Origin: Sporohalobacter salinus
GTDB taxonomy: Bacteria > Bacillota > Halanaerobiia > Halobacteroidales > Acetohalobiaceae
DNA: 64,000 nucleotides
Reading direction: 5' to 3'
Assembly (NCBI RefSeq): GCF_016908635.1
Contig: NZ_JAFBEG010000006.1
Span: forward strand, 62,001 to 126,000
A program made the position numbers and the translations under genes. Under the pieces are notes generated by a model that did not search any database, was not told the DNA's origin, and saw nothing but the letters and a program-made list of their open reading frames with translations. Below are positions 6,277-52,491 of this stretch, in pieces. Every line of letters begins with the position of its first letter. The first letter of the stretch is position 1.

Positions 6277-7083
6277 GTTATGTGAAGTGCCAATTTTTAC
6301 AGCACCTATTTATATTTTTCTATTTTCAATTTCATCTTTAACATATGTATTTTTAATAAAATCTAAATTTAAACACATAACTGTCATAATTACTACAAAA
6401 TATATATCTACTATATCCATAAAAGTATCTGTAATTAAATCAATTAAAATATTACTTGAGAAAAATGATAATAAAAACCCTAATCCAATAGATATTCCTA
6501 TTCTAAAAATCCAAATTAAAAATATTCTCCACCAATCTCCCTTCACTAAATCTTTACTATAATCTAAAGCATTCTTCCCACTTTCATTTTTTAATATAAC
6601 TATTTGTATAGCAAATGAATAGTAAACAAACCAAATAACCCCCGGGATAATCAATACTAACGTTAATAATCCTACTATTATACCCCCTAAAAATTTTGTC
6701 CAAAATACTCTTCTCCAATTAGAAAATGCTTTTCCAGTAGCTACATTAAAACCTATATCCTTATCATTTATATACTCTTTCACAACATATGTTACTCCCA
6801 TTACTGCAATTACTCCAATTATAGCTTCTAATAATCTTATAATATCCATATAAGTTCTAAGTTCCATTTGTGGATAAGCTTGTCTTATAATAAAAAGTAA
6901 AATATTTATAGGAACATAAATACACAAAGTTATTAATAAAATAGTTCTAAATTTATTTTTGTAAATCCTCCAACTAGTTTTGATAACCTCTTTTAAACTA
7001 AACTTATTTTGTCTAATCTTATCATACATTAAAAATCTTCTCCTTTCTAAATTACAGTAGCCAAAATTGACATTTCACATAAC
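6277..7083 (-). repeat. Cassette-like unit around a membrane protein, best-preserved ends
   Basis: The plus strand from 6277 reads GTTATGTGAAGTGCCAATTT and the minus strand from 7083 reads GTTATGTGAAATGTCAATTT. Eighteen of 20 bases agree, so the unit has a clean inverted pair with GTT at both outer edges. It encloses a single gene. Integron cassettes show this: the R'' box at the 3' end is complementary to the R' box at the 5' end because both belong to one attC site in the circular form. Confidence 0.7.
6310..7029 (-). CDS. Six-helix membrane protein
   Basis: A 239-residue integral membrane protein with about six hydrophobic segments (near 30-50, 70-90, 115-140, 140-155, 175-200, 205-230) and a soluble N-terminus with KTSWRIYKNKF. 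The pattern resembles the glycerophosphodiester phosphodiesterase membrane domain and DUF975-type proteins of Firmicutes. ATG 7029 follows AAAGGAGAAGATTTTTA. No transporter or enzyme motif is visible. It is the only gene in its cassette-like unit. Confidence 0.6.
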   Translation of the reverse strand: MYDKIRQNKFSLKEVIKTSWRIYKNKFRTILLITLCIYVPINILLFIIRQAYPQMELRTYMDIIRLLEAIIGVIAVMGVTYVVKEYINDKDIGFNVATGKAFSNWRRVFWTKFLGGIIVGLLTLVLIIPGVIWFVYYSFAIQIVILKNESGKNALDYSKDLVKGDWWRIFLIWIFRIGISIGLGFLLSFFSSNILIDLITDTFMDIVDIYFVVIMTVMCLNLDFIKNTYVKDEIENRKI

Positions 7084-7084
7084 T

Positions 7085-7262
7085 TAATATTACCGACACT
7101 ATTTTTAATCAGTGTCGTAAATGTAAACTATATTTAAACTTTTACGGCTGTCGCAAATATCTATTATCTATAAAACAACTTTAAATTTCTCCTATTACAT
7201 TATTACGACAAAAGGAACTATTTTCCTCTAGAGGATATTCTATTATTGCAGTTCCCGTTAAA
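7085..7262 (-). repeat. Dispersed attC-like inner repeat, copy 1
   Basis: A repeat of about 150 bases that recurs at 12,360-12,500, 34,745-34,870 and 37,505-37,660. Shared landmarks on the plus strand are CAGTGTCG, ATCTATTATCTATAAA, ATTACATTATTACGACAAAA, GGAAC and CCTCTAGAGGATATTCTATT. Three of the four copies follow directly on the GTT of a 5' unit end, so the repeat forms the interior of an attC-like site. A short hairpin, GACACT to AGTGTC, lies next to the GTT end. Confidence 0.65.
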
Positions 7263-7269
7263 CAGAGTA

Positions 7270-8460
7270 AGACCAGCCTCACAGCTAGGACATCTTATCA
7301 AACTGCATGTACGGTGCTCCCATATACAGCTTTCCATTGTCGTTGCCCCTTTCCAAGAAGTAAGTCTTCGACTTCGTGTTTCCACGAGTGTGAATTTTAC
7401 TCTTGTTAGGACAATGTGATAGTGATTTGGGTCTCTTCTGCCTTAATACGGCATTAGGGATTCTTTTATTTTTTCAGTTCTAAATTCCATCAATAGATTA
7501 TGATTTATATTATCAAAGTTTCCTTTGCTGTTGGTATCCAATACCCATCTTCTTTATACTTTTCTACTTTATTTATTGCATCTATCCGAGACCTTCCTAA
7601 ACGAAATCCATAGGAACAGTCACAGAATATCTTTTCAAATATTGGTTCTATGACTCTTTTTACTGCTGCTTGTGCTATTCTATCCTTCACAGTGGGTATA
7701 CCTAATGGACACTACCATCACCTTTTGGAATTACTACTCTAAGGTGATGCTTCATATCTATTCTCCTGTAATGTAACTGTCTATATAACTCTCATATTCT
7801 ATTGATAATTTCCACAGAATTCTTCTATAGTTACTCCATCTATTCCAGCACTTTCTCCATTTGATATTACGGTCTGTACTGCTAAATATAGATTTGCTTT
7901 TGTTACTATCCTATCTTTAAGTGTATAATAGTAGATGCGTTTGATCACTAATTCACCTATCATTCCCTCACAACTTACCAATCCTCAGCTCCATAATCCA
8001 GTAACCTGTCCCTATTGTTCATGATATTACTGACCATATCTCTAGGTTTTCACCAATCGCCTCCTCCAGTATACCACTACTCAAGTTGTAGTATTTCTGA
8101 TTTGCTTCGTTTCCAGTTATTTATTCCTTTCTACGCCATCCATCAAATTTCATTGAAGATATCAATGTCTAAACTACCAAGACAGATTAACACTCTTATT
8201 TTACTTCCAATTTCGACAATGTAGGTATCCTTCGCTCCAATTGGTTTTATAACAGACCAACTATCTTCACTACTATGATACCATCTGACTCCTAGTTAAG
8301 CATCATTTCGGTTTTTCCTCTCTAGGTTATACCTCCACTTATATCCATTAGTTTTGATGAAGAACACACTAGAACCTCTTCCAGTCAACTACATCACTTT
8401 ACTATCATTCCAACCCTAATCACACCTAACTGTTTGACATGAATACATGGAATTCAAACC
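7270..8460 (-). pseudogene. Group II intron with broken reverse transcriptase
   Basis: The minus strand has a plausible 5' start GTGTGATTAGGG near 8460, about 480 bases of structured non-coding sequence, then pieces of a group II reverse transcriptase: AVQTVISNGESAGIDGVTIEEF (about 7,800-7,890) and IPTVKDRIAQAAVKRVIEP then YGFRLGRS (7,580-7,690), in different frames with stops between. The catalytic YADD block and maturase domain are missing. A domain V hairpin at about 7,290-7,335 (AAAGCTGTATATGGGAGC) and a short domain VI close the 3' end. This intron differs from the 525-nt relics and ends at the inner repeat. Confidence 0.7.
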
Positions 8461-8599
8461 AACTATGGATTTCTCCGATATATTGACGGATCATCACAAT
8501 TAAATACCACCCACCTCTGGTTCACTCTCGTTTCGAACTGATAGCACGTCTCAGACTCTTTGGATTCTACCTTACGATAAACACCCTATCACTGTTGAC

Positions 8600-8910
8600 T
8601 TCATGTACTGTTTTAATTTAGACTTAGGTTGATGTTTGATTTCTCGGTTTGCTCACTCTTTTCGTCTTTGAGTGCCACAATTATCTCAACCTTATCAACC
8701 ATGTTAAAAGCACAGATACGACTCTCACCTATTGATAATGTAATTTACAGAACACACAATATAAATAACTCCAGCTAAAAAGCTAGAGTTTTGGTTCATC
8801 ATACTATATATAAAATTGAGAGTTTACATTTAAGTAAGCTTAGTTTACCCTGCGTAATCTTAAGTACCTTATCTTTTTTTAATTAATTCTTGACATCTAT
8901 TAGCTGGTTC
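8600..8910 (-). other. Intron-tail fragment, hairpin and attC-like repeat
   Basis: At 8,615-8,705 the tail of the 525-nt intron family reappears (TTAGGTTGATGTTTG on the plus strand, then CTTTGAGTGCCACAA) without domain V. A hairpin ACTCCAGCTAAAAAGCTAGAGTT lies at 8,771-8,793, resembling the inner ACTCCAGTTAATAGCTGGAGT hairpin at 32,050-32,075. From 8,815 the repeat shared with 2,045-2,180 begins. No gene is visible. Confidence 0.55.
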
Positions 8911-16971: not shown

Positions 16972-17154
16972 CTACCTTCTCCTAGCTTACGGAGTAGGTA
17001 TTGCAACATACCATTTTGTTATCATTATCAATCTCTTCAACTTTCTTTCAGTCTCCTAGTTTACGGAGTAGGTATTGTAACTGACCCTCCTCGGGGCAAG
17101 CCACAGTGATTTATGAGCTTTCAGTCTCCTAGTTTACGGAGTAGGTATTGTAAC
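16972..17154 (-). CRISPR. CRISPR array A, 3 repeats, 2 spacers
   Basis: Three 36-base repeats at 16,972-17,007, 17,046-17,081 and 17,119-17,154 with spacers of 38 and 37. The plus-strand repeat is TTTCAGTCTCCTAGTTTACG then GAGTAGGTATTGTAAC. The leftmost copy is degenerate (CTACCTTCTCC), marking it as the old end. Read on the minus strand, each repeat ends GGAGACTGAAA, giving the usual crRNA tag, and the leader lies on the right. This array uses GTAGG where the others use GTAAG. Confidence 0.92.
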
Positions 17155-17400
17155 CGCGCCAAGTCAAAAATCTCAATCCTATGCTGGCAAGCTTTATAAG
17201 ACTTCACTTCTCCCAAAATACTAAAATTATTTCGAAAACTAAATCTTGCACGAAACCCCGGTAGGTTTTCGAAATCATCCTCAACCTCTGGCATAATAGG
17301 AATTACTCAGCTTTCAATGTTCAAAAAATTATCTTTACTTTAACATTAAGATCAGTATTTTTTGTAGTTTTCGAAACTACCTAATTTTTACTAGTAATCT
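17155..17400 (-). promoter_or_regulatory. CRISPR leader A with TTTCGAAA palindromes
   Basis: Directly right of the last repeat lies a conserved leader, shared with arrays B-E. It holds ATTTCGAAAAC to GTTTTCGAAAT as an inverted pair at 17,228-17,275 spanning TTGCACGAAACCCCGG, and a second perfect palindrome GTAGTTTTCGAAACTAC at 17,364-17,380. These are plausible binding sites for a dimeric regulator or for adaptation proteins. Confidence 0.75.
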
Positions 17401-17790
17401 ATTTCTAGATTCAACATTTAATTCCTGCTTGTCAGTGAAAAGAACTTATAGTTACGTAACTACAAACTTAACCAAAAATTAATATGGAGTTAATAAATTA
17501 TTAATATTCTATTGCTATAATATAAGTAACAATTGGAGCAGGGACAATTATTTATTGCCTTGACTCCATGAAAGTTCCCTTAAATAAGTTACTAATGATC
17601 AATTTACTCTTCACATCCCCTTCAAAAGCAGCCTAATATTAGGCTGCTTTTGAGTTTATATGATTTCATTTATGAAGTTCTAACTAAAATAAAAAAATTC
17701 CGCATTCTGGCAGGCTTTATAGCTCTCTACTTCTCACAAAACACCAATCACTCAGCCTTCATGATTTTCCATAGGTACTACTAATAATGA
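17401..17790. repeat. Intergenic region with direct repeat DR1 and hairpin
   Basis: About 130 bases at 17,575-17,705 (AATAAGTTACTAATGATC, then CTCTTCACATCCCCTTC, the hairpin AAAAGCAGCC to GGCTGCTTTT at 17,622-17,652, and GTTTATATGATTTCAT) recur at 19,145-19,260 on the far side of the Grx-TrxR gene. The hairpin loops differ while the arms agree. No gene is visible. Confidence 0.7.
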
Positions 17791-17795
17791 ATAAA

Positions 17796-17825
17796 AAAAC
17801 TCAGGCTAAAAGCCTGAGTTAATTA
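17796..17825 (-). terminator. Terminator of the Grx-TrxR gene
   Basis: On the minus strand AACTCAGGCTTTTAGCCTGAGTT is followed by TTTTTT, 17 bases beyond the stop at 17842. Confidence 0.85.
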
Positions 17826-17841
17826 AAATTATCAAATATAC

Positions 17842-19050
17842 TTATTCTAAATACTCATTAATTCGCAAGGCAGCTTTAGCACCTTCCGCAGCAGAAATAA
17901 TTATTTGCTTATCTTTAATATTTGTCACATCTCCAGCGGCCCAAATTCCTTCTACACTGGTTTCATTATTATCATTAATTACAATTTCCCCCACTTCATT
18001 TACTTCTACCGTTTCTCCGATAAAATCACTATTAGGAAGTAATCCAATCTCAATGAACACTCCATTAACATCTAGCTCATCTTCTGTCTCTGTTTCCATG
18101 TCTTTAATCACTAATTTATCTACCTTCTCTGCATCTTTATCACCAATTATCTTCTCCACACCAGTACCAGTATGGACTGTAATAGCTTCTCGGTCATAGA
18201 CTTTTTCTTGCAGAACTTCATCTCCAGTCAATTCAGGCTGTACTTCTATTAAATCAACTTCACAGCCCAACTTAGATAAATCAAGGGCAGCTTCTAAACC
18301 AGCATTACCTCCACCAACAATAGCTACTGCTTCACCTTCATATAAATAACCATCACAAGTAGCACAATAATGAACTCCTCTACCTTTTAATTGTTTTTCA
18401 CCATCAACACCTAATTCGCGATTAGTTGTTCCACTAGCAGCTACAACAGCCTTTGCTCGTCCTTGATGACCATCTTCAGTTTCTACTATTATTTCATCAT
18501 CATTTTTACTTACACTTTTAACTGTTGCCCCTAATTCTAAATTAACTCCATATTTATCTACATGCTCCCAGAACGACTGCAGTAATTTTGGACCTTGAGC
18601 CTCTTTAACTCCTAGATAATTATCAATTTCTCCTGTATCGATCATTTGACCGCCTAAAGCAGACGAAAGAATTAAAATATCCAATCCTTTTCTGGCTCCA
18701 TATAAAGCAGTATTTAATCCAGCAGGTCCAGCCCCAATGACTATCACATCCCATAATTTATCAAAATTTTCTCTTAGTTCAATTCCCAACAAATCATATA
18801 ACTCTCCACTTTCCTTCATTTCCATCATAGAATCAAAACCGCCAACTAATTGATCATCAATAAAAATTTGGGGAACAGTTTTAGCCCCATCAGCTCTCTT
18901 TATCATTTCTTTTTTCACAGCAGAATCTTCATTAATGTTATATTCTTGGTAGGAAAATCCTTTACTCTTTAAGAAAGATTTAGCTTTATTACAGTATGGG
19001 CACCCGTTCAAAGTATAAATTTCAATCTGTGGTTGCTTCTTTTCAGTCAT
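17842..19050 (-). CDS. Glutaredoxin-thioredoxin reductase fusion
   Basis: A 402-residue fusion. Residues 8-85 are a glutaredoxin with active site CPYC and the TVPQIFID cis-Pro loop. Residues 100-402 are a low-molecular-weight thioredoxin reductase: FAD motif VIGAGPAGLNTA, redox pair CATC in GVHYCATCDGYLYEG, NAD(P)H motif IVGGGNAGLEAA, and GIWAAGDV near the end. The flavoprotein could pass electrons directly to its own glutaredoxin, and possibly on to the one-Cys peroxiredoxin. Such fusions are known in anaerobes. AAGGAGG precedes ATG 19050. The gene lies between CRISPR arrays A and B within a direct repeat. Confidence 0.92.
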   Translation of the reverse strand: MTEKKQPQIEIYTLNGCPYCNKAKSFLKSKGFSYQEYNINEDSAVKKEMIKRADGAKTVPQIFIDDQLVGGFDSMMEMKESGELYDLLGIELRENFDKLWDVIVIGAGPAGLNTALYGARKGLDILILSSALGGQMIDTGEIDNYLGVKEAQGPKLLQSFWEHVDKYGVNLELGATVKSVSKNDDEIIVETEDGHQGRAKAVVAASGTTNRELGVDGEKQLKGRGVHYCATCDGYLYEGEAVAIVGGGNAGLEAALDLSKLGCEVDLIEVQPELTGDEVLQEKVYDREAITVHTGTGVEKIIGDKDAEKVDKLVIKDMETETEDELDVNGVFIEIGLLPNSDFIGETVEVNEVGEIVINDNNETSVEGIWAAGDVTNIKDKQIIISAAEGAKAALRINEYLE

Positions 19051-19139
19051 TTTTTTCGGCCTCCTTGTAAATTTTAATTTTCTAGCTATGTCTATTATAA
19101 TATTTAAATATTATAATATATTCCTGCTTAAAATGCTTA

Positions 19140-19265
19140 TTTTTTCTAATAAATTACTAATAATCAGTATACTCTTCACATCCCCTTCAAAAGCAGCCAA
19201 TCATTGGCTGCTTTTAAGTTTATATGATTTCATAAATGAAATCATAACTAAAATAAAAATCTCCG
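19140..19265. repeat. Direct repeat DR2 flanking Grx-TrxR
   Basis: Second copy of the 17,575-17,705 sequence: TACTCTTCACATCCCCTTC, hairpin AAAAGCAGCC-AATCATT-GGCTGCTTTT, then GTTTATATGATTTCAT. The hairpin followed by TTTAAGTTTAT could terminate rightward transcripts. Together with DR1 it brackets the gene and abuts the two arrays. Confidence 0.7.
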
Positions 19266-19350
19266 CCACTATCCCTGGAGATTTCCCATTTCAACTGCTT
19301 TACTCATATCGACAGCAATCTTTTAACACATCAGCAAATAAACCCTTGTC

Positions 19351-19751
19351 AATCAGTCTCCTACCTTACGGAGTAAGTATTGTAACAACATTAGGATAAG
19401 CTAATTTATCTATAGTAATCTCTCTTTCAGTCTCCTACCTTACGGAGTAAGTATTGTAACAGGGAGATAGTTACTTCCTCAGAGATTCAAATAACTTTCA
19501 GTCTCCTACCTTACGGAGTAAGTATTGTAACATTTCAAGAAATCAAAAAATCGCTCTAGTTTCTTCTTTCAGTCTCCTACCTTACGGAGTAAGTATTGTA
19601 ACTGATACTTATGCTATGAGGTATGAACCACATTATCGTCTTTCAGTCTCCTACCTTACGGAGTAAGTATTGTAACCTCTACTTCTATTACTCTTTCTTT
19701 CAGATCATAATGTTCTTTCAGTCTCCTACCTTACGGAGTAAGTATTGTAAC
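19351..19751 (-). CRISPR. CRISPR array B, 6 repeats, 5 spacers
   Basis: Repeats at 19,351, 19,425, 19,496, 19,567, 19,641 and 19,716, each 36 bases (TTTCAGTCTCCTACCTTACG then GAGTAAGTATTGTAAC). Spacers are 35-39 bases. The leftmost copy begins AATCAG, a decayed old end. The array lies immediately downstream of cas6 on the same strand, with its leader between. Confidence 0.95.
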
Positions 19752-31785: not shown

Positions 31786-31789
31786 TTTT

Positions 31790-31897
31790 TTTCAGTCTCC
31801 TAGGTTACGGAGTAAGTATTGTAACTCAATTACTCAGCAATTTGATACTCCTACTCCAATCTTTCAGTCTCCTACCTTACGGAGTAAGTATTGTAAC
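31790..31897 (-). CRISPR. CRISPR array C, 2 repeats, 1 spacer
   Basis: Repeats at 31,790-31,825 (CTAGGTTACGG variant) and 31,862-31,897, with one 36-base spacer. After the second repeat ATTGTAAC is present a second time before the leader begins at CCGCGCC, as if a repeat end had been duplicated by slippage or by imperfect integration. Confidence 0.88.
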
Positions 31898-39140: not shown

Positions 39141-39225
39141 GCTAAAATACCCCCCCCGCAGCCATGACGGCAGCGAGGATCGTTAGAATCTAATGCTAAC
39201 TTTCTCAATCTACACTTCTATGCGT

Positions 39226-39409
39226 TTTCAGTCTCCTAGGTTACGGAATAAGTATTGTAACAGCTCAGTTTGCAGCTACCAAAAGAGATGTTCCGTTTTT
39301 TCAGTCTCCTACCTTACGGAGTAAGTATTGTAACTTTGAAATTTTTTCTACAGATATTTGAGTACAGTACTATTTTCAGTCTCCTACCTTACGGAGTAAG
39401 TATTGTAAC
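39226..39409 (-). CRISPR. CRISPR array D, 3 repeats, 2 spacers
   Basis: Repeats at 39,226-39,261 (GGAATAAG variant), 39,299-39,334 and 39,374-39,409, with spacers of 37 and 39. The leftmost repeat carries two changes, as expected of the old end. Confidence 0.92.
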
Positions 39410-39947: not shown

Positions 39948-41270
39948 TTATTTCAACTTAATTAAAAATATGTCACTTCCTCCATGACCATAAGAATCTG
40001 TTGTGGTAAGGAACAAGTAACCATGATCAGGAGTTTCTATAACACATTCCCCTAAATCTCTAGCTGTTCCTCCATAATATTCAGCCCATTCTATTTGGCC
40101 AGCATAGTTCAATTTAATTGTACATATATCATAACTACTACTTTTATTATCTGGCCCTATAGAACCTGTAGTGATATATCCTCCATCGCTTGTTTCTTTT
40201 ACGCAATTAAGTGAATCAATTGTATTGGGTACTGGGAAAATTTGTTGCCAGTCTACTTTACCATGATTATCGATTTTTGCTACCCAAGGATCGTTACCAG
40301 AAGAATATACAGAAAATCCACTCATAACATAACCGCCATCACTTGTTTGATAAATATTCGAAGGATAGTTATCGTGATCAGTACTACTATAAGTGTCGTA
40401 AGATAATACATTTCCATATTTATTAGCTGTTACTAATGGAACCTTTGATACTTCTTCTCCTTTATCAAGACCCGTAAAAACATAATCTCCATCATTATTT
40501 TGAATGATATTAGAAACTGCATAAATATCATTTTCTAATTGTTTGTAAGTATTCTTTTCCCATATTTTATTGCCAGATGCATCAAGTTTAAGTAAATGAA
40601 AAGAAGTTGCCCAATGTGTATATTCATTATCTACTATTTCCTTAGTATCACCAGCCCCTAATATCATATATCCGCCATCTTTTGTTTGTATACAAGATAT
40701 TCCTCTTTCCATATCTCCGGCTTCTTCTGTTATAAAGTGCCTAATCCATTCATAATTTCCATTTGCATCTATTTTTATTACAAAAGGTCCTCTATCGTAA
40801 TCTTTATCTGTTACAGTTCCAGTTAATATATATCCACCATCTTGAGTTGGTTGAACGTAACTAGTTGTGGCTTTAATTATTGAAGAATTTAAAACATTAT
40901 ATTCTCTAGACCATTCTACATTGCATGAAGAATCTAGTTTAACCAATACACTTCCCTCTGAATTCTCTCCAACAATAATATATCCTCCATCTGTTGTTTT
41001 TTCAAACCAAACAGCTTCTTCAGATCCTTTTGTTCCGATAGCACGAGCCCATTCAACAGTTGGGTTTTCATTAGCTTCTAAAGCATTACTTGAAGCCCTT
41101 AAACTAGATTTTAACTTCCTATTTAAATCCTTATCAATTTTACTTTTAGCCTTAATATCACTTATAATTTTACTTTTCATAGTTTTATCATTTGCCAAAA
41201 CAGCACTACTCCATATAACCAAAACTACCATTAATAAAATCATACACCTAGGCTTAAAATTTGAAAACAC
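39948..41270 (-). CDS. Secreted beta-propeller-like repeat protein
   Basis: A protein of 440 residues with a signal peptide (MILLMVVLVIWSSAVLA, about 9-27). The rest has about seven repeats of 45-60 residues containing T/K-x-DGGYI/V-x-x-G, for example KTTDGGYIIVG, PTQDGGYILTG, QTSDGGYVMSG and ETSDGGYITTG, alternating with VxWxxxF/Y strands. This is the pattern of secreted DGGY-repeat proteins, probably a beta-propeller. GTG 41270 is chosen, with AAGGGG eight bases upstream; GTG 41279 overlaps the ribosome site. No enzymatic motif is seen. It is likely exported to the cell surface or medium. Confidence 0.75.
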   Translation of the reverse strand: MFSNFKPRCMILLMVVLVIWSSAVLANDKTMKSKIISDIKAKSKIDKDLNRKLKSSLRASSNALEANENPTVEWARAIGTKGSEEAVWFEKTTDGGYIIVGENSEGSVLVKLDSSCNVEWSREYNVLNSSIIKATTSYVQPTQDGGYILTGTVTDKDYDRGPFVIKIDANGNYEWIRHFITEEAGDMERGISCIQTKDGGYMILGAGDTKEIVDNEYTHWATSFHLLKLDASGNKIWEKNTYKQLENDIYAVSNIIQNNDGDYVFTGLDKGEEVSKVPLVTANKYGNVLSYDTYSSTDHDNYPSNIYQTSDGGYVMSGFSVYSSGNDPWVAKIDNHGKVDWQQIFPVPNTIDSLNCVKETSDGGYITTGSIGPDNKSSSYDICTIKLNYAGQIEWAEYYGGTARDLGECVIETPDHGYLFLTTTDSYGHGGSDIFLIKLK

Positions 41271-41402
41271 TAAAATCACCCCTTTTTAAATTATTTTTAA
41301 AGCATCTTTATTACATACTTCTTTTCCAAAATATGTAATTCCTTCTTTTTTTCAATTTTTGATTATTACCTTTTTTATTTGGGTGAAAAAAGTTAAAACA
41401 AA

Positions 41403-41440: not shown

Positions 41441-41448
41441 CATAATTT

Positions 41449-41773
41449 TTTCAGTCTCCTAGCTTACGGAGTAAGTATTGTAACAAAGCCACCCGCTAAG
41501 GTGGCAAGATTATCATACAACTTTCAGTCTCCTAGCTTACGGAGTAAGTATTGTAACACAGCAGAGATAACGTCGTCCACTTCTGCTAATACCTTTCAGT
41601 CTCCTAGCTTACGGAGTAAGTATTGTAACGCTGATCGAGCAGTTCTAATCCATTCGGCAAAACTCTTTCAGTCTCCTACTTTACGGAGTAAGTATTGTAA
41701 CTGCCGGATGTTGATCATCCCAAAAGTAGTATTGGGCTTTCAGTCTCCTACTTTACGGAGTAAGTATTGTAAC
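41449..41773 (-). CRISPR. CRISPR array E, 5 repeats, 4 spacers
   Basis: Repeats at 41,449, 41,522, 41,594, 41,666 and 41,738, each 36 bases; the first three read CTAGCTTACGG and the last two CTACTTTACGG. Spacers are 36-37 bases. It uses the common repeat and leader. Confidence 0.95.
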
Positions 41774-43260: not shown

Positions 43261-43605
43261 TTACTTTCTAATTATTGCATTTCCATTTTTTTCTTTAGAT
43301 ACAATATTAATTAAGTCCGGCCACTCTCTACCCAAAACTAATTTAAGTGTTGTATCAGCCCCTTCCTTTTCTTCTTTAACTTCTATCAATCTCATTTTTG
43401 CTTCAACCAATCCAGCTTCTACAATATAGACTACATCTCCAACTTTGAAATCCTGAAGATATTTGGCAGGACCATTAGGCAGATATTCTAATTCAACAGT
43501 AATATTCTTTTCATTGGTTTCTAATTTTTCTTCTCCTTTTTGAATTAATTGATCTTCAGTCTTTAAATTTCTTGCATCAATAAATATTTCTTTTCTAATG
43601 ATCAC
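43261..43605 (-). CDS. Gp37-like tail protein, C-terminal module alone
   Basis: About 115 residues starting IIRKEIFIDARNLKTED and continuing LIQKGEEKL, AKYLQDFKVGDVV and TLKLVLGREWPDLI. This is the C-terminal third of the Siphovirus ReqiPepy6 Gp37-like family, whose N-terminal part is at 46,325-47,455. It thus looks like the detached end of one ancestral gene. GTG 43605 is the likely start, overlapping the end of the upstream reading frame. A diverged copy of the same module ends the upstream broken gene. Confidence 0.7.
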   Translation of the reverse strand: MIIRKEIFIDARNLKTEDQLIQKGEEKLETNEKNITVELEYLPNGPAKYLQDFKVGDVVYIVEAGLVEAKMRLIEVKEEKEGADTTLKLVLGREWPDLINIVSKEKNGNAIIRK

Positions 43606-43611
43606 TATCAC

Positions 43612-46323
43612 CTACTTTCTAATCTCTGGGTCTAGATTATTATTTCTACTAACTATCTTTTCTATCATATCTGGCCATCTTTTACCTAGAGTGATTTTAA
43701 GTTGGTTACATCCTTGAGTAGTTTCCTCTTGTACTTCTATAATTCTAGATTTAATTTTTAAAATATCGGGTATATATAAAGCAATTTGATCTCCGACTTT
43801 GAAATCCTGAAGATATTTGGCAGTGTTGTTAATAGTGAGTTCTATGTTATTTTCATTAGAGTTTTTGGTAGGAATATATTCTAAATCAAAACTTAATTTT
43901 TGATTTTTCTTAATCAAAAATCTTCGGCCTCGCTGTTCTAATTGTAAATCACTTTCTAAATCAGGAGCTGATATAAAAGTTTCATTTCTAAAATTATCTG
44001 TAGCTGACCCGGGTACTTTGTGTATATCACTATAGATTTTCTTTTGATTATAAGAGTCTGGATTAATTATTGCTACTGCTCTGATATAATAGTCTACATA
44101 CTCACTTAGAGCAACTCCTTTGATAAAATCATCGCCATAATATTCTTCAGGGATTTTTGTATTAAATTTTCCAGGATCACTCAATATTGTTGCGCTTGTC
44201 TCTTCTGGAATCCATTCAAAATTAGTTTCAGAAAACTCTACATATTCAAAATAACACTCAGTTTTTTCATCTATATTTTTTATTCTTGCTTTTGCTTCTA
44301 TTCCATATTGTTTATCTTTTTCACTTAATTTTCTTATGTTCAATATTTTTATCTGTGGTTCAGCAGCGATTAAAATTATATTCAAGTTTGAACTTGCTTT
44401 GAAAGAAGTAAAACAGCTTAAGATTGGATAACCTTCATTTTGATTTTCAATAATAGACCAAACAGATTTAAAGTCTCAATTTTCATAAGCTGTCTTTAAA
44501 GTCATCTCTTCAGTTGTTAGTCCCATACCATAACCATTATCAGTTACATCTTTGTCTTTGTTAAAATATGTATTTTTATCTTCAAATTCAACTTCAAATT
44601 TATGTTCAAGCCACTCGTTATATCCAGAAGTAATAGAATAGACTGCATTAGATACAGAATAACAATTAATGAAGCCTCCCATTCCAACATAACCTGCTAA
44701 TCCTGCAACTTCCCCCCCCTGAACTCAAATCAATTTCAGCATTAGCAAAACTGTTCTTTATATATCCAAATAAAGTTGCTACTAACCCTCCGCCAATATC
44801 TAAACGAGCCGTTCCTCCAAATCCATTCTTAAAACTCCTCTTCAGTGATTCAGGTAATTCAATAGCAATAAGTTTTCCCTTAAAACTACATCTATCCATT
44901 AAACCTAATACAACCGAATCATTTTCCCCATCTATTAAAGAACCTGCTATTCCTGCCGGAGCATAAGTTTCAATTTTTCCTTCCGAATGAATATTTTCAA
45001 TTTCTCCTATCCATTTATGAGCTAATGGTCCTGTTGAAGCCCCAAAAGTAAAATCAAGATCTATATAATTAACTGCATAATCTATTTTTTTCTAGTTATA
45101 TCCGCATTAAGATTAAGGTTTTTAATTTTTCCTTTTCCAGCACCAAACATAGGCAAATCCAATTTAATTTCATTATTTTGACCGTCAAAATCAGCATAAA
45201 ACTCTTTTAAATAAATCCATAAATTAACATCATTCCATAAATTATATGGCCCACCTGCGAGATTTTCAATAGCCTTTTGTGTTATGTCTATATCATTCAT
45301 TAATTTAAATCCTTCATTGCTTACAAAACAATTATCATAATTAGGACATTTAGTATAATTGCAAAAACGGAGTCCCCATAAATCTTTAACATCTTCAATC
45401 TTTGGCTGTATTTTTCTTAGATTGTAATTTCTATAACATGTACTTCCAGCTTCTATAGTAAATATTTCTTCTCCTTTTCTTTCGTCTAATAAATATTGAT
45501 CAATAATATGATTTAAACAGCCGTCTTTATGCTTTATTTTAACTTTTCCCTCGGGGACTGCAGTTCGGTAATTACCTTTTTTATCAGTTTTGAAATTTAG
45601 TATTGGACGATGATTACCATTTGGTTTATAACGACTTAATGAAATTTTAACCGGCTTTTCTGGAGGTTTTCCTGATTTATCTTTGAAACTACCTTGAACA
45701 TATCCGATTGGACGCTGAGGATACATACAATCAATTCCTACACCCGAATAAATAAGAGAACTATCTCCTATTTCTTTGTTTTTAATTTCTAATTTAGAAA
45801 CAGCAGAAGTTGGTTGAGAAGCTTCATTATCATGATAAATAAACGATATTGAAAAACCTTCCATATCAGATGAAAAGTACTCTTTTGAAGTCCAATCTTC
45901 ATGACTAGTATTTCCATCAATCAAATATCCCGTCGAAGAATTAAAGCCCCCTATATTTACTTTTAATTTCCAGTTGTCATGATTCATATAAGGGGTTTTT
46001 GTTTCTTGAGAAGTAGGGCCTTCATATTGATATTCAATTTTAGCTCCTAAATTTAAATATCGTCCATTATAATATTTGAAATAAACTTCTGCAATTTCTA
46101 TATAATAATGATCTAGAACAAATCTTATTTCACTTTCCTCTTCTTCATCTGAAACATCTTCTTGATGTGGATTAGCATAAGCTACTATTTCAGAAAAAGT
46201 TAAGTCAATATCTAGATAAAATTTTATATTTATATGGTCATCTTCATTCTCAACAGATTTTGTCCAATCTGTTATCATGCCTATTGTATCATAATAATAA
46301 TGTTTTTGGTAAGTATCAACCAT
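43612..46323 (-). pseudogene. Tail adhesin with GLUG repeats, two frameshifts and one stop
   Basis: One gene of about 900 codons when joined. Residues 1-410 (46,323-45,082) hold beta-rich tail segments, an FKTDKKGNYRT fold like CarboxypepD_reg and a Cys-rich stretch. A run of seven A at about 45,085-45,092 breaks the frame; the next 120 codons (SEGKIETYAPAGIAGSLIDG) lie one frame over. A run of eight G at about 44,713-44,721 restores the first frame, which reads AGLAGYVGMGGFINCYSVSN (GLUG motif). TGA at 44,476-44,478 replaces an expected Trp before DFKSVWSI. The C-terminus is a Gp37-like module (YLQDFKVGDQIALYI). Probably a host-binding tail protein, silent or phase-variable. Confidence 0.8.
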
Positions 46324-46324
46324 C

Positions 46325-47455
46325 TTATTTTCTCACCTCGATTACTTGTCGCTCAGCTCCTTCTCCTTGCCCGCCGACATAAACTACATTTTCTGATTCA
46401 AACTCACTTTCCCTAAAACCTAATAATTTAACGTTATCAAATTTAGGTGATAAGATAACATTACTTTTATCTTCACCTTTTCTAATTTTAAAAATAAACT
46501 TCTTATTTATAAGGTCTAATGCTATATCCCAACCTAGACCAGAAGTCAAACTAAGACTTTCCATAATTTCGCTTATTTTTTGAAATCTACCCCGGAAAGT
46601 GACTTCCGGACCTCTAGCTTTATCTTTGGCTATTTCTAATTTACTAAATTTTCTATCTGAATCTTCAGGATTAACTACATTAACATCTACATAATGTTTC
46701 ATAACACTTTCAGCTGGCCCTGTTTGATCATCATAGCCATTATCTTTTTGAGTTCCATCAACTGCAATTCTTTTATCAAAAATTCCATCTCCGCTTTTCC
46801 CGGCAAATACCCAAATTTCTTTATCTTTGCCTTCACTGCTTACTTCCAATTCTCTATGCTGAATTTTACCTCCTCTTGTTATATCTCCACGCTTGACTGC
46901 TATATATTTCCCGATAGTTATTTTCTTAGCATTATCTTTATGTCTATTGATCTTCAGCTCAAAGCTATCATGTTTTCTCCATCTCCTAGTCCAGTTGAAA
47001 TATTCTAGATTATCTAATTCAGCTATAATTTCTAAATTATTATCCAACAAATAAATTTTTTGATTAGACTTATCAATAGTGTAATTCGGAATAATCTTAC
47101 TACTAATATCTAATGTTGTAACTATTGAACCTTTTAATTTAGTTACTATCTCATTTTTGTCTTTCTTTATCTTGCTTAATTGAAAATCAACATTGTTACT
47201 AGAAGGTGAAACATAATCAGTTAAAATTAAGTTAGCAAATGGTTTTAAATCCCTTTTAACTTTATCCAAATTAAAATTAACTTTATCAGCAGAAGGGGAA
47301 TTATAAATATTAAGCTGAAAATCTATATCAGAACCTATGAATTGAATATAATTTTTGATTTTTATCAATTCAAAATTAGATAAATCGGCATCAGAAATAG
47401 TATAAGATTGCAACTGAAATTCTATATTATTGGCTGTATCTTCATTATAACTCAT
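46325..47455 (-). CDS. Gp37-like tail protein, N-terminal and central part
   Basis: A 376-residue tail protein. Residues 140-376 match the Siphovirus ReqiPepy6 Gp37-like family: LEYFNWTRRWRKHDSFEL, KYIAVKRGD, FAGKSGDGIFDKRIA, GPAESVMKHYVDVNVVNPE, GLGWDIALDL, and VYVGGQGEGAERQVIEV. The family continues with the module found separately at 43,261-43,605. The first 130 residues contain four repeats of N-V/I-D/E-FQL with about 28-residue spacing, also present in the neighbouring gene. It is probably a tail-tip protein. Confidence 0.8.
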   Translation of the reverse strand: MSYNEDTANNIEFQLQSYTISDADLSNFELIKIKNYIQFIGSDIDFQLNIYNSPSADKVNFNLDKVKRDLKPFANLILTDYVSPSSNNVDFQLSKIKKDKNEIVTKLKGSIVTTLDISSKIIPNYTIDKSNQKIYLLDNNLEIIAELDNLEYFNWTRRWRKHDSFELKINRHKDNAKKITIGKYIAVKRGDITRGGKIQHRELEVSSEGKDKEIWVFAGKSGDGIFDKRIAVDGTQKDNGYDDQTGPAESVMKHYVDVNVVNPEDSDRKFSKLEIAKDKARGPEVTFRGRFQKISEIMESLSLTSGLGWDIALDLINKKFIFKIRKGEDKSNVILSPKFDNVKLLGFRESEFESENVVYVGGQGEGAERQVIEVRK

Positions 47456-47469
47456 ACTATCTCCCCTTC

Positions 47470-48015
47470 CTACACTACAGGCTTCACAAAAGGTAAACTT
47501 TCCGCATTGTATTTATCTCCATTTTTTGCGTACTGTACTACTACATGATACTCTTTATTGATATTTAGATTATCAAATTGATATTCTCCACTTTCGTTTG
47601 TTGTAGTAATATCTTCTAAATTATCATCTGTAGTATTAATTAGATATAATTTAGCATTATTAATAACTTTATTATCTTTAGTTACTATTCCAGAAATAAC
47701 ACCATAACTAGAATTTACAAATGAATTAATGCTACTATTTGTTATAGTTGATCCAAGTAGAGATAATTTTTCTGAGCTAAAATTAATATTAGCATTCGTA
47801 ATAGCCGAACTAACAATATTTTTTCTTAATTTGTACTCTACTTCTATTGTATTGTTTGGTGGAGTGTCAATTTTTACCTTCCCACTAGTATTAACCGAGC
47901 TAATAATAGGTTTCTTCAATCTATACTTTATTTCTATTGTATTGTCTGGTGGAGTGTCAATTTCTATTTTTCCATTGGCATAACTAAAACCTTGAAGCGA
48001 AAATGTAAGAGCCAT
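47470..48015 (-). CDS. Tail-associated protein with repeats and CarboxypepD_reg-like domain
   Basis: A 181-residue protein. The first half has two repeats, KIEIDTPPDNTIEIKYRLKK and KVKIDTPPNNTIEVEYKLRK, about 31 residues apart. The second half, GVISGIVTKDNKVINNAKLY then ESGEYQFDNLNINKEYHVVV, is a carboxypeptidase-regulatory-like beta-sandwich, common in surface-binding proteins. AGGGAGGGATAG precedes ATG 48015. It is likely displayed on the tail. Confidence 0.7.
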   Translation of the reverse strand: MALTFSLQGFSYANGKIEIDTPPDNTIEIKYRLKKPIISSVNTSGKVKIDTPPNNTIEVEYKLRKNIVSSAITNANINFSSEKLSLLGSTITNSSINSFVNSSYGVISGIVTKDNKVINNAKLYLINTTDDNLEDITTTNESGEYQFDNLNINKEYHVVVQYAKNGDKYNAESLPFVKPVV

Positions 48016-48034: not shown

Positions 48035-49309
48035 TTATGCATATTCAGCAGTGATATTCAGACTAAAACTATCTTTGCCTTGTGACGCTGTATTATTTGA
48101 AGTAAATCTTAAATAGAAAACATCAGTCTGGTCTGAACTATATGTACTATTAAAAGTAAGTTCACTTTTATTATCAAAAGGTTCTTTTGTTTTAGATAAA
48201 CCTGCTGTAATTCCTGTAGCTTCATTAATAGCGTCAATAGTTACATTTTTAATATCAAAATTAGTTTTATTAATAAATTCTAACTTTACAATATCTGAAT
48301 TAGAATTCCATTTTTGTTTATTAAAATCAAGTGGAACATCTAAATCTGAACTACCATCTGTTAAAATAAAGCCAGTTTTAGGATTTTTTATAAATATATT
48401 ATTTTGATAGTTAATTAGTTCTATTACTTTAACTCCTTCAGTAAAAGTACCAAAAACTGCTTTCGTCTGATTTGGAGTTATTGAAGCTGAAATAGGTGAT
48501 CCATTAAATTCTGTAAAGTTTAATATTAAATCACCAGTCTTAAGATCCCAAATTTTGCTCGTATCATCACTACTAACAGAAATAACTTTACTATCATCTG
48601 GTGTTACTAATACATCTTTGATAGTTTTTAAATGCTTAGTAAAATTTAGTAATACTTCTCCAGTTTCTATATCCCATACTTTAATCGAATTATCACCACT
48701 TCCAGAGATCACCTTACTACCATCTGAAGTTACTGTTAAACAACTGACATAATTACTATGTTCCGCAAAATCAAACATTACTTCTCCAGTTTCTATATCC
48801 CATATCTTAACTATGTCATCATTATCAGCTGAAATTACTTTATTGTTATCTGGTGTTACTGTAATAGATCTAATAATGCTATTATGCTTAGTAAAATTTA
48901 GTATCACTTCTCCAGTTTCTATATCCCATACTTTAATCGAACCATTATATTCGCCACTAATAACTTTATTGCTATCTGAAGTTATTGCTAGTCCTTTGAT
49001 ATTATCTTCATGTTTCGTAAAATTAGTTAAAACAGTACCGTCTGACATATTCCAAACTTTAATTTCATCATCATAACCACAACTAATAACTTTATTATCT
49101 GGAGCTACTGCTATATCACTAACAGACCCACCAGTAGAGCCATTATGTTCTGTGAAATTTAGTAATACTTCTCCAGTTTCTATGTTCCATACTTTGATAT
49201 CTCCGTTATTTTCTCCCGAAACGACTTTTTTGCCGTCAGAAGATATTGCTGATGACATTACGTAATTATCATGTCCTTTAAATTCTAATAAAATATCACC
49301 TAAAGCCAA
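48035..49309 (-). CDS. WD40 seven-blade propeller protein in the tail cluster
   Basis: A 424-residue protein. Residues 1-295 contain seven WD40 repeats of about 40 residues, each with SDG/PDN-x-KVIS-G and I-KVWDIETGEVLLNFTKH, with GH/EH at blade starts. Residues 300-424 form a beta-sandwich-like tail-type domain (GFILTDGSSDLDVPLDFNKQ, FYLRFTSNN). It lies between Dit and the Gp37-like gene in one operon, where tail-tip and receptor-binding proteins are coded. WD40 proteins are common in eukaryotes and some bacteria but unusual as phage structural genes. Likely a binding propeller on the tail tip. Confidence 0.85.
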   Translation of the reverse strand: MALGDILLEFKGHDNYVMSSAISSDGKKVVSGENNGDIKVWNIETGEVLLNFTEHNGSTGGSVSDIAVAPDNKVISCGYDDEIKVWNMSDGTVLTNFTKHEDNIKGLAITSDSNKVISGEYNGSIKVWDIETGEVILNFTKHNSIIRSITVTPDNNKVISADNDDIVKIWDIETGEVMFDFAEHSNYVSCLTVTSDGSKVISGSGDNSIKVWDIETGEVLLNFTKHLKTIKDVLVTPDDSKVISVSSDDTSKIWDLKTGDLILNFTEFNGSPISASITPNQTKAVFGTFTEGVKVIELINYQNNIFIKNPKTGFILTDGSSDLDVPLDFNKQKWNSNSDIVKLEFINKTNFDIKNVTIDAINEATGITAGLSKTKEPFDNKSELTFNSTYSSDQTDVFYLRFTSNNTASQGKDSFSLNITAEYA

Positions 49310-49325
49310 TTAACTTCCCCTCCTT

Positions 49326-50102
49326 TTATACTCCTAAATATCTATCATAGAAAAATAATTTAGCTTGACAGTTAGAATAAATCTCATTATCTCCTGGAGC
49401 TAATCTAGGTAAATATGAACTAGGATCTATAGTGTTGAAATAATTAATTTTAGACCCGTCGCTATTTATTAAGATAACTTCTTTTTCACCAAACTCAGAA
49501 TTAACTTTTATTGTTTGATCACTATCTATGCTAGCATTAATAGTTAGTTTCTCTCCTGTAGTTTTGTTTTGTATAACAGGATTATCTACTGGACCATCAA
49601 TCTTAATTACTAATGGAGTAAACACATCACCATTATTAGTTACTATTGTAGTTTCATTATCTAAGATTACACTATTTCTATCCGGATCAAACCATCTAGG
49701 ATCTGGAGCAAACAGATTTATAACTGCTATTTGATGTTGCTTCCCTCCTGCATTAGGAAAGTCTATCTCTCCATTACAAACCGACTTAATATCATATATT
49801 TTATCTTCTTGTATCCATCTCAGCTTGCCTAGTCCCTTTTTCGAATTGAACATTCTAATTAATTTCCTACGTCGATCTAAAGTTTCTTGTCTAGTTTCTC
49901 CGCAAATAACTAAGGTAATAGAAAGATCTCTGGGTTCTAAATTTTGAGCTATTAAAGTTTCTCCTTCTTGCCCTATAGCTTTGACAGTTTGTAAGTTAGT
50001 AGGAAATTCTGAGAATCCATCTTTAGATTTTAGCAAGAACTCAGGCAGCGTAAAATCAACTACCTGAGTTCCTGCTGTAATCCAGCTAATTTTTTCCTCC
50101 AT
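49326..50102 (-). CDS. Distal tail protein (Dit)
   Basis: A 258-residue siphovirus tail protein forming the hexameric hub at the tail tip. Typical Dit features are TNLQTVKAIGQEGETLIAQ-NLEPRDLSITL, the TLDRRRKLIRMFNSKKGLG helix, and INLFAPDPRWFDP. The C-terminal half is a second beta-sandwich. Its position after the tape measure and a small protein is standard. Confidence 0.88.
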   Translation of the reverse strand: MEEKISWITAGTQVVDFTLPEFLLKSKDGFSEFPTNLQTVKAIGQEGETLIAQNLEPRDLSITLVICGETRQETLDRRRKLIRMFNSKKGLGKLRWIQEDKIYDIKSVCNGEIDFPNAGGKQHQIAVINLFAPDPRWFDPDRNSVILDNETTIVTNNGDVFTPLVIKIDGPVDNPVIQNKTTGEKLTINASIDSDQTIKVNSEFGEKEVILINSDGSKINYFNTIDPSSYLPRLAPGDNEIYSNCQAKLFFYDRYLGV

Positions 50103-50556: not shown

Positions 50557-52491
50557 TTATCTTAATCCAAACTCTAAACCTAACTTTTTCATCATTCTCT
50601 CATTCTGTCTTCTAGTTTCTTTCTCATCTAAAGGCTTAGGGGATTTAAAAGTATTATGTTGTTTAATAATTATTTTCTTTTCACTATCTAAGTTACCACT
50701 AGATTTATGATTAACAGAACCAATATCATTTTTAGTTGAATTAACAGTAGAATTAGCTGCATTAGCCCCGGCTAATTCTACTTGTCTTTGATTCTTATTA
50801 ATGCCTTCTGCTAGGCCTGCTGCTACATTAGCTCCTATCTCCATCATAACTTTAGAAGGAGAATTAATATCTAGTATGCTTTCTACAGTATCCACTACTG
50901 CATTAGCTCCATCTTTAACAGCATCTATAGCAGCACTAAATTTATCTTGAATTCCTTGAACAAACCCACTAATCAAATTAGCTCCTAAATCATATAACTT
51001 ATCATCTAAACTAGTAATAAACTTGATTATCTTATTGAAATAGTTGTTAATTTTGGTTACAATTTTATTAAGACCTTTTTTTACAGTTTGCAACATATTC
51101 ATAAAAGCTTGTTTTAATTTATCATCTAGGCCCAAAATAAACCTAATAATATTCTGCAAATACTGTTTGGTAGAAGATTTAATCTGCTGCCATTTATTTT
51201 TTGTAGTTTTTAATAAGCTCCTGAGTGTCTTTTTAGCTTTTTGGGTTGCTTTTCTAAATCCATCACTAATTGCTTTGCCAATCGTATTAGCTATTGAAGC
51301 TAACTTATTGGCCCAGCTTTTTAATAATGAAACCATTCTTTTTATTAGAGAAAACAAACCTTCTTTTATCACTTTTGCTAAAGTAGCGATTTCATCTTTG
51401 AAAGTTATTATAACAGCAACGACAGCTAATATTGCAGCAGTCCAGGGGTTTAGCATACCAATTACAGTTCCAATTCCACTAACTAAAGTGCCAATCCAAC
51501 CAGCTACAGTGCTAATTGCAGCAGCTAAACCACTACTTCCAGATAGAAAAGTGGTTACCGTGCCAAACGCTTCAATTAAACTACCAATTATCATTAATAC
51601 TGGTCCAATAGAAGTTAATAATCCTGCTAAAGCTATCGCAACATTTTGAATTGGGGCAGGAATTGCATTAAAAACCGCAACTAATTTAGTAGCAAAGATA
51701 GTTAGTTTGGTTAGAATTGGTTGTAATGTACTTCCTAGTTTTGCTAACTGCTTTTTTAACTTATGAGTAGCTTCTGCACTTTTGACAAGACCTTTATTGT
51801 TCTTTCGATATTGCTTATAAGACTGGGCCAACCCGGTCTTAGCTAAAGTTTGTAAAACATAATTTTGAGCTTGCCCAGCTTTTTTGGCCCTTTTTAAACC
51901 TTTCTCAAACTTCTTGACACTTACTCCTGATCTCTCTAAAAGTTCCATAAACTGACCTACTGCCTTGCCAGAGCCTATTGTTTCTTGCAAAGAATTTGAA
52001 ACTTCTTCAAACTTAATAGTCTCCTTAAATTTAGTAGCTGCCCCCATAAGATGGTTTAGGGTTTTTTGCATCTTTTGGCCCTTAAACCCAGCAGCTAAAA
52101 GGTTACTCATACCTTCAACACCAGCTCGAGTATCTTGGACAACAGCTTTAGTTTTAACCATAGCCCGATCTATGTTCTTCATGCTAGCTCCGGCAGATTT
52201 TACGTTATTCTCAAGAACTGACATTTCTTTTCTGAAATTTTTAGTTCCCATTGTAACTGCTGCGAATCCGGCGGCCAACGGCGCTGTTACACCTGCTGTC
52301 ATTCTTTTTCCTAAACCTGTCATTTTGCCGCCTAGAGTTTGCATTTTATTCCCTATTTGCCCTAACTTATCCGACGCTTGCTCCGCCTTATCTTCTATTC
52401 CTTCAAGCCCTCTTTCTACTTTCTCAAAAGATTGTGTCGCTTTATCTATTGCATTGATTAATATCTCTACCTTGTGATTGCTTGATGCCAT
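50557..52491 (-). CDS. Tape measure protein
   Basis: A 644-residue protein that sets tail length and helps DNA entry. The N-terminus is coiled-coil (KATQSFEKVERGLEGIEDKA), followed by the TP901-like core with KQYRKNNKGLVKSAEAT, hydrophobic Gly/Ala-rich helices (about 270-365), and the C-terminal NLISGFVQGIQDK and VESILDINSPSKVM motif of phage tape measures. At 644 codons it predicts a tail of about 95-100 nm using the usual 0.15 nm per residue rule. It overlaps the chaperone stop as TAATG. Confidence 0.92.
   Translation of the reverse strand: MASSNHKVEILINAIDKATQSFEKVERGLEGIEDKAEQASDKLGQIGNKMQTLGGKMTGLGKRMTAGVTAPLAAGFAAVTMGTKNFRKEMSVLENNVKSAGASMKNIDRAMVKTKAVVQDTRAGVEGMSNLLAAGFKGQKMQKTLNHLMGAATKFKETIKFEEVSNSLQETIGSGKAVGQFMELLERSGVSVKKFEKGLKRAKKAGQAQNYVLQTLAKTGLAQSYKQYRKNNKGLVKSAEATHKLKKQLAKLGSTLQPILTKLTIFATKLVAVFNAIPAPIQNVAIALAGLLTSIGPVLMIIGSLIEAFGTVTTFLSGSSGLAAAISTVAGWIGTLVSGIGTVIGMLNPWTAAILAVVAVIITFKDEIATLAKVIKEGLFSLIKRMVSLLKSWANKLASIANTIGKAISDGFRKATQKAKKTLRSLLKTTKNKWQQIKSSTKQYLQNIIRFILGLDDKLKQAFMNMLQTVKKGLNKIVTKINNYFNKIIKFITSLDDKLYDLGANLISGFVQGIQDKFSAAIDAVKDGANAVVDTVESILDINSPSKVMMEIGANVAAGLAEGINKNQRQVELAGANAANSTVNSTKNDIGSVNHKSSGNLDSEKKIIIKQHNTFKSPKPLDEKETRRQNERMMKKLGLEFGLR

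Follow-up and report, generated by a model that had tools for sequence, protein, structure and literature searches.

The window analysed here, a stretch of 64,000 nucleotides from Sporohalobacter salinus, contains a prophage with a tail operon on one strand in the order tape measure protein (TMP), gp80-like protein, Dit, WD40 protein, 181-aa protein, and Gp37. The same strand also carries portal, capsid, and tail genes, together with terminase, MuF-like, and protease genes named by eye. The gaps between the tail-tip genes measure 14 to 30 nt, and those flanking the WD40 gene 16 to 19 nt. Reading 48035-49309 on the plus strand gives 35 stops. The features discussed below are as follows.

50557-52491, minus strand: tape measure protein, 644 aa
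50119-50526, minus strand: gp80-like protein, 135 aa (PF23140), conserved next to Dit
49326-50102, minus strand: Dit (distal tail protein), 258 aa (phrog_33, E 7.2e-34; PF05709, PF22768)
49317-49323, minus strand: ribosome-binding site GGAGGGG, 7 nt 5' of the TTG start, read from sequence
48035-49309, minus strand: gene of the WD40 tail-tip protein, 424 aa, TTG start
48410-49309, minus strand: seven-bladed WD40 propeller, aa 1-300 (Pfam PF00400/PF25173, repeat register, AF2, Foldseek)
48038-48409, minus strand: C-terminal Ig-like module, aa 301-424, common to phage tail proteins (independent HMM, AF2)
47470-48015, minus strand: 181-aa protein with a carboxypeptidase-regulatory-like domain (PF13620, E 1.1e-8), next downstream of the WD40 gene
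46325-47455, minus strand: N-terminal part of a Gp37-like tail protein, 376 aa (PF14594 positions 2-257, E 4.6e-48; phrog_538, E 4e-57 for Gp37)
43612-46323, minus strand: broken frame of a tail protein after the Gp37 N-terminal part, ending in the Gp37 C-terminal part (413- and 257-aa pieces)
43261-43611, minus strand: second copy of the Gp37 C-terminal part, 116 aa (PF14594 positions 268-369)

An earlier, sequence-only reading had placed here a tail-tip gene with seven WD40 repeats and a beta-sandwich end, lying between Dit and a Gp37-like gene in a structural operon. The WD40 propeller, its exact span, and the sandwich were borne out, as were the neighbours (phrog_33, phrog_538, TMP, portal, and capsid, with the small 181-aa gene before Gp37) and the tail-tip assignment, which follows from the operon position and a module common to phage tail proteins; the gene, however, lies on the minus strand, and its seventh blade is degenerate.

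Two frame changes and a stop codon in frame separate the two pieces of the tail gene at 43612-46323, whose intact relatives in L082 and L083 are GLUG-bearing and end in the Gp37 C-terminal part. This break may reflect prophage decay or wrong assembly, and because of it the prophage may be defective. The tandem Gp37 C-terminal parts (PF14594) at 43261-43611 and 43612-44385 have a 35-nt stretch in common at 97% identity. No relative of the window Dit gene was found among 60 related genomes, so the prophage appears to be sporadic. CRISPR arrays of two repeat types flank it (17044-19751, 31788-31897, 39224-39409, and 41447-41773; also L027 15115-15689), with several short clusters on its left and, on its right, an array adjoining cas2- and cas1-looking genes; the flanking spacers gave no match to the prophage longer than about 16 nt. 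Just beyond the prophage and adjoining a CRISPR array, 39948-41279 (minus strand) encodes an apparently secreted protein of 443 aa in which TTDGGYI-type motifs recur; by eye it resembles a propeller, and it has no solid match in Pfam.

The WD40 propeller and its C-terminal module

WD40 domains are most familiar from animals and plants. In the window protein, PF00400 matched five stretches with an E-value of 7.1e-40 and 134 bits, against a Pfam cut-off of 27, which rules out chance or low complexity as the source of the repeats; whole-propeller models in Pfam scored better still, with E-values as low as 5.5e-73. Six blades are canonical, with tryptophans at residues 41, 86, 128, 170, 212, and 254 (spacing 45, 42, 42, 42, and 42), and the seventh is degenerate (FGTFTEGVKVIELI); the N-terminal strand of the protein would close it. 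AF2 modeling from the single sequence returned blades 1 to 6 as four-strand sheets with block pLDDT values mostly between 75 and 92, and blade 7 poorly and at low confidence. The top PDB matches of the model in Foldseek were WD40 propellers (WDR5, LIS1, and WRAP designs). The propeller begins inside the first 20 residues, and there is no stem. The repeats had been described as highly alike, which holds for a single 54-nt stretch at 96% identity, whereas the 42-aa blade units as a whole are just 40-64% identical in protein and 58-74% in DNA.

Residues 296-424 alone matched no Pfam or PHROG family. They matched the C-termini of prophage proteins in a genome of the same order (G012) and in G154, which themselves match PHROGs 16766, 10667, and 37157. 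AF2 modeling of this module with 27 sequences gave an Ig-like sandwich (pLDDT 81, pTM 0.76). A PDB sequence search with the module returned no relative, and VIA-align gave a best Z of 7.8 (rmsd 2.7, 92 aligned residues) to many Ig-like domains; since these structural matches lie below Z 8, only the common sandwich is claimed, and no closer fold.

Searches with tblastn found the module in phages SP-15, Jenst, LIS04, G, Perkons, LC76P1, and Sundance. An HMM built without the window protein picked out the WD40 protein among 868 ORFs (i-E 1.3e-11), with a match ending at residue 422 of 424. As the profile for the wider scans, the 12-row A1 was too diverse and a 5-row subset was used instead. These scans, which covered viral contigs as well as bacterial genomes, added about 43 module proteins, tail proteins of Firmicutes phages or prophages, and in 43 of 44 proteins the module ends no more than 3 aa from the C-terminus. 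The heads at the N-terminus vary, comprising the RCC1 propeller, SPRY, LamG, discoidin, and, in L048, a YVTN/WD40-like propeller. In SP-15 and LIS04, the module genes adjoin baseplate J or pectate-lyase/tail-fibre genes, and bacterial genomes rarely contain the module (3 of 398 in the phylum sample).

Two side observations concern the same family. In Psychrobacillus phage Perkons (L032 4215-6603), the module protein ORF174 lies directly 3' of a reverse transcriptase gene, a pair that suggests a diversity-generating retroelement acting on the module family. In addition, small proteins of about 155-170 aa encoded upstream of adhesins have the first part of the module motif (WDIGTVDAGS; weak matches, that in L017 by eye) and could possibly be docking partners of the same fold.

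L028 948-1412, L029 3132-3605, L040 311-826, L041 361-828, and L017 1221-1706: small WDIGTVDAGS-motif proteins

The Dit-Gp37 slot in other phages and the origin of the gene

First scans of the viral contigs with the WD40 protein or Dit as query found nothing. A pattern scan for KVWDxxTGE then revealed one true relative, in IMG/VR phage L078 (extended as L088), and in this phage, too, a WD40 gene lies between Dit and Gp37. The tail-tip order in L088 is gp80-like, Dit, a second gp80-like, a 414-aa protein with WD40 propeller and module, the Gp37 N-terminal part, and a protein with the Gp37 C-terminal part at its end. The orthologue matched the window protein with an E-value of 8e-62 at approximately 31-32% identity, and its C-terminus matched phrog_37157 independently. 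The presence of propeller and module together in the same slot rules out an unrelated insertion in a single strain. Both proteins are seven-bladed (the blade count of L078 being read off the alignment), and at about 31% identity this speaks against the easy change in blade number that the sequence-only reading had expected from the repeats.

Of the tail-tip genes shared by the two phages, the one for the WD40 protein has diverged furthest (32% identity, compared with 37-44% for the others). Examined by part, the propellers are 32% and the modules 30% identical, so the two have diverged about equally, and nothing suggests that the head changes faster. L088 contains no relative of the window portal, capsid, tail tube, or TMP; as portal, capsid, and TMP are unrelated, the tail-tip genes move as a set between phages with unrelated heads. 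Within L088, Dit and Gp37 are present, but neither a tail tube nor a tape measure gene can be recognised between capsid and Dit (7012-8759), and this phage is possibly a short-tailed one bearing the tip of a long-tailed phage.

The content of the slot differs in other contigs. In three of them (L083-L085), the slot holds a 490-aa module protein that starts with MALGD, as the window protein does, and in L082 it is empty. A WD40 protein, another module protein, or nothing at the same place indicates that the Dit-Gp37 position is a site for an optional, exchangeable protein. The first blade of the L083 slot protein is propeller-like by eye, but the protein had no match in Pfam or PHROGs, and a propeller type is not claimed for it.

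The slot bears on two alternative functions. WD40 domains serve for the most part as protein-protein platforms, the WD40 gene adjoins Dit, and the slot is conserved, so that the propeller might instead be an internal scaffold or collar of the tail tip that binds Dit, the gp80-like protein, and Gp37 and stabilises the baseplate with no contact to a receptor. That reading is unlikely, given that the slot can be empty, as in L082, and that very different head folds sit on the same module, a misfit for a fixed structural partner. The second alternative is a cargo gene expressed from the prophage, a lysogenic conversion or anti-defence factor with no part in the virion; intracellular WD40 proteins are indeed common in bacterial signalling and conflict systems. 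The gene, however, lies on the same strand as the late structural operon and within it, separated by gaps of 16-19 nt, the protein has the module of tail proteins, and a second virus keeps it in the same slot, which together make cargo highly improbable.

The sequence-only reading had also proposed an adaptor acquired from a host. PF00400 found no match in the whole host genome other than this gene, and the full protein has no relative in the same-genus or same-family genomes sampled. WD40 proteins are present elsewhere in the class, the best relative being 36% identical and having no module. The GC3 of the gene (0.14) lies below that of Dit, gp80, and TMP (0.20-0.25) and close to that of the one host gene checked (0.12), as a recent capture of a host WD40 gene by this prophage would predict; however, several downstream phage genes are similarly low in GC alongside this AT-rich gene, and another phage has an orthologue that ends in the same module. 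Recent capture from this host is thus not supported and is largely refuted. It is possible that the phage lineage took up a bacterial WD40 propeller at some earlier time.

Proposed role at the tail tip

The domain make-up of the protein, the C-terminal module that it shares, its place in the operon, and the conservation of the slot point to an adhesin that is a structural part of the tail tip in a long-tailed prophage, and this is probably what the gene encodes. Docking at the tail tip, in the Dit/Gp37 region, would most likely fall to the conserved Ig-like module. The propeller at the N-terminus would then face outward as the receptor-facing head, with its rim or top face binding a cell-surface ligand, either protein or glycan. 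A receptor-binding propeller, one of the options in the sequence-only reading, is the reading we prefer. Phage adhesins usually combine a conserved end with a variable head, and it is on this pattern that the putative role of the module as virion anchor is based: phages would retain the module and swap the head among RCC1, YVTN-like, and WD40 propellers, SPRY, LamG, and discoidin. Dozens of phage tail proteins have the module to which the propeller is joined, which makes the protein most likely an exchangeable part with which the virus grips its host, and not a stray host gene.

Some points count against the adhesin reading: WD40 domains usually bind proteins, often as internal scaffolds, a neighbouring tail gene is broken in a prophage that may be defective, and the propeller has diverged no faster than the module between the two orthologues. 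An Ig-like module carrying varied carbohydrate- or protein-binding heads would also suit a surface decoration that, as proposed for other Ig-bearing decorations, sticks the virion to particles, mucus-like polymers, or extracellular material and not to a true receptor, and a similar option was raised by the authors of the tentaclin study (PMC10743442). This is improbable for the window protein, because the Dit-Gp37 position indicates the tail tip and not the head surface.

The adhesin reading can be extended further, although we hold the extension to be somewhat less probable than its opposite: the module may act as a general plug into the virion, with phages of different tail types swapping whole heads on it, eukaryote-like propellers included, and the WD40 head may recognise a protein of the host surface. 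If true, this would be the first case of a canonical WD40 domain in a receptor-binding protein of a virus of bacteria, and the tail-tip gene cassette that carries it would travel between phages whose heads are unrelated.

At this locus a canonical WD40 domain sits in a phage tail tip, joined to a C-terminal module. Searches with that module could bring together, under one name, a whole group of phage adhesins with swapped heads that are currently labelled 'regulator of chromosome condensation' or 'hypothetical', and the comparison of slots holding a WD40 protein, another module protein, or nothing offers a direct handle on the exchange of host-recognition parts in long-tailed phages. An RCC1 annotation led to a suggested DNA-ordering role in a jumbo coliphage (PMC7247149), and the annotations behind that suggestion could be re-examined.

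Comparison with known phage propellers and adhesins

Propellers in phage tails are known, and WD40- or YVTN-like propellers near tail genes have precedents such as Salicola phage CGphi29. The earlier statement that no standard tail gene is of this type therefore stands for a canonical WD40 domain, which was found in no phage tail tip in the literature searched, and fails for propellers in general, since RCC1 and YVTN-like propellers occur on the same module in other phages and RCC1 and Kelch propellers occur in virions (PMC5259590). The CGphi29 protein SLPG_00037, from a saltern phage, is a WD40/YVTN-like propeller encoded two genes past the tape measure gene; it differs in its length of 562 aa and its divergent repeats, and the searches run here did not find the shared C-terminal module in it. 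Another WD40 protein, gp247 of Salicola phage SCTP-2, is encoded among hypothetical genes and is uninformative on tails.

Eukaryote-like propellers were detected by mass spectrometry in the virions of Rak2-like jumbo phages (GAP32 RCC1-like GAP_001 and CBB Kelch CBB_552; PMC5259590), and these propellers are of other types than that of the window protein. The receptor-binding protein Gp45 of S. aureus phage phi11 (PMC4901313) likewise has a propeller at a siphophage tail tip, but this is a five-bladed, non-WD40 propeller with an N-terminal coiled-coil stem and a C-terminal tower, in contrast to seven WD40 blades and no stem. Propellers are possibly also present in the receptor-binding proteins of PRD1 and phiKZ (PMC4901313).

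Methanoculleus virus Blf4 offers two further observations made by eye: a C-type-lectin-like protein between TMP and Dit that resembles the targets of diversity-generating retroelements (L020 9390-10877), and a Gp37 with a LamG-like head (L020 13103-15280). No mass spectrometry of virions appears in the Blf4 paper, and no discussion of gp366 was found in the phage G tail paper.

Tentaclins (PMC10743442) also combine an N-terminal head with a C-terminal Ig-like domain proposed as virion anchor, and one tentaclin-like bacterial protein adds a beta-propeller; their head is a C-type lectin, whereas the window protein has a WD40 propeller in that place. The module of the window protein has an Ig-like fold, but the FP_Mushu tentaclin, the only one compared, gave no sequence match to the module profile by HMM or hhalign. 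With the C-lectin head missing and no such profile match, the WD40 protein is not assigned to the tentaclins.

The RCC1-propeller tail proteins SP15_063 of Bacillus phage SP-15, JENST_51 of Brevibacillus phage Jenst, and that of Listeria phage LIS04 (PHROG 16766) share with the window protein an N-terminal propeller, the same module at the extreme C-terminus, and a location in the baseplate/tail-fibre region. They differ in having RCC1 instead of WD40 repeats, a length of 740-775 aa, additional domains that separate the head from the module, and far larger phages. Modular tail adhesins with exchangeable heads are thus a known kind, and the canonical WD40 head is the new part.
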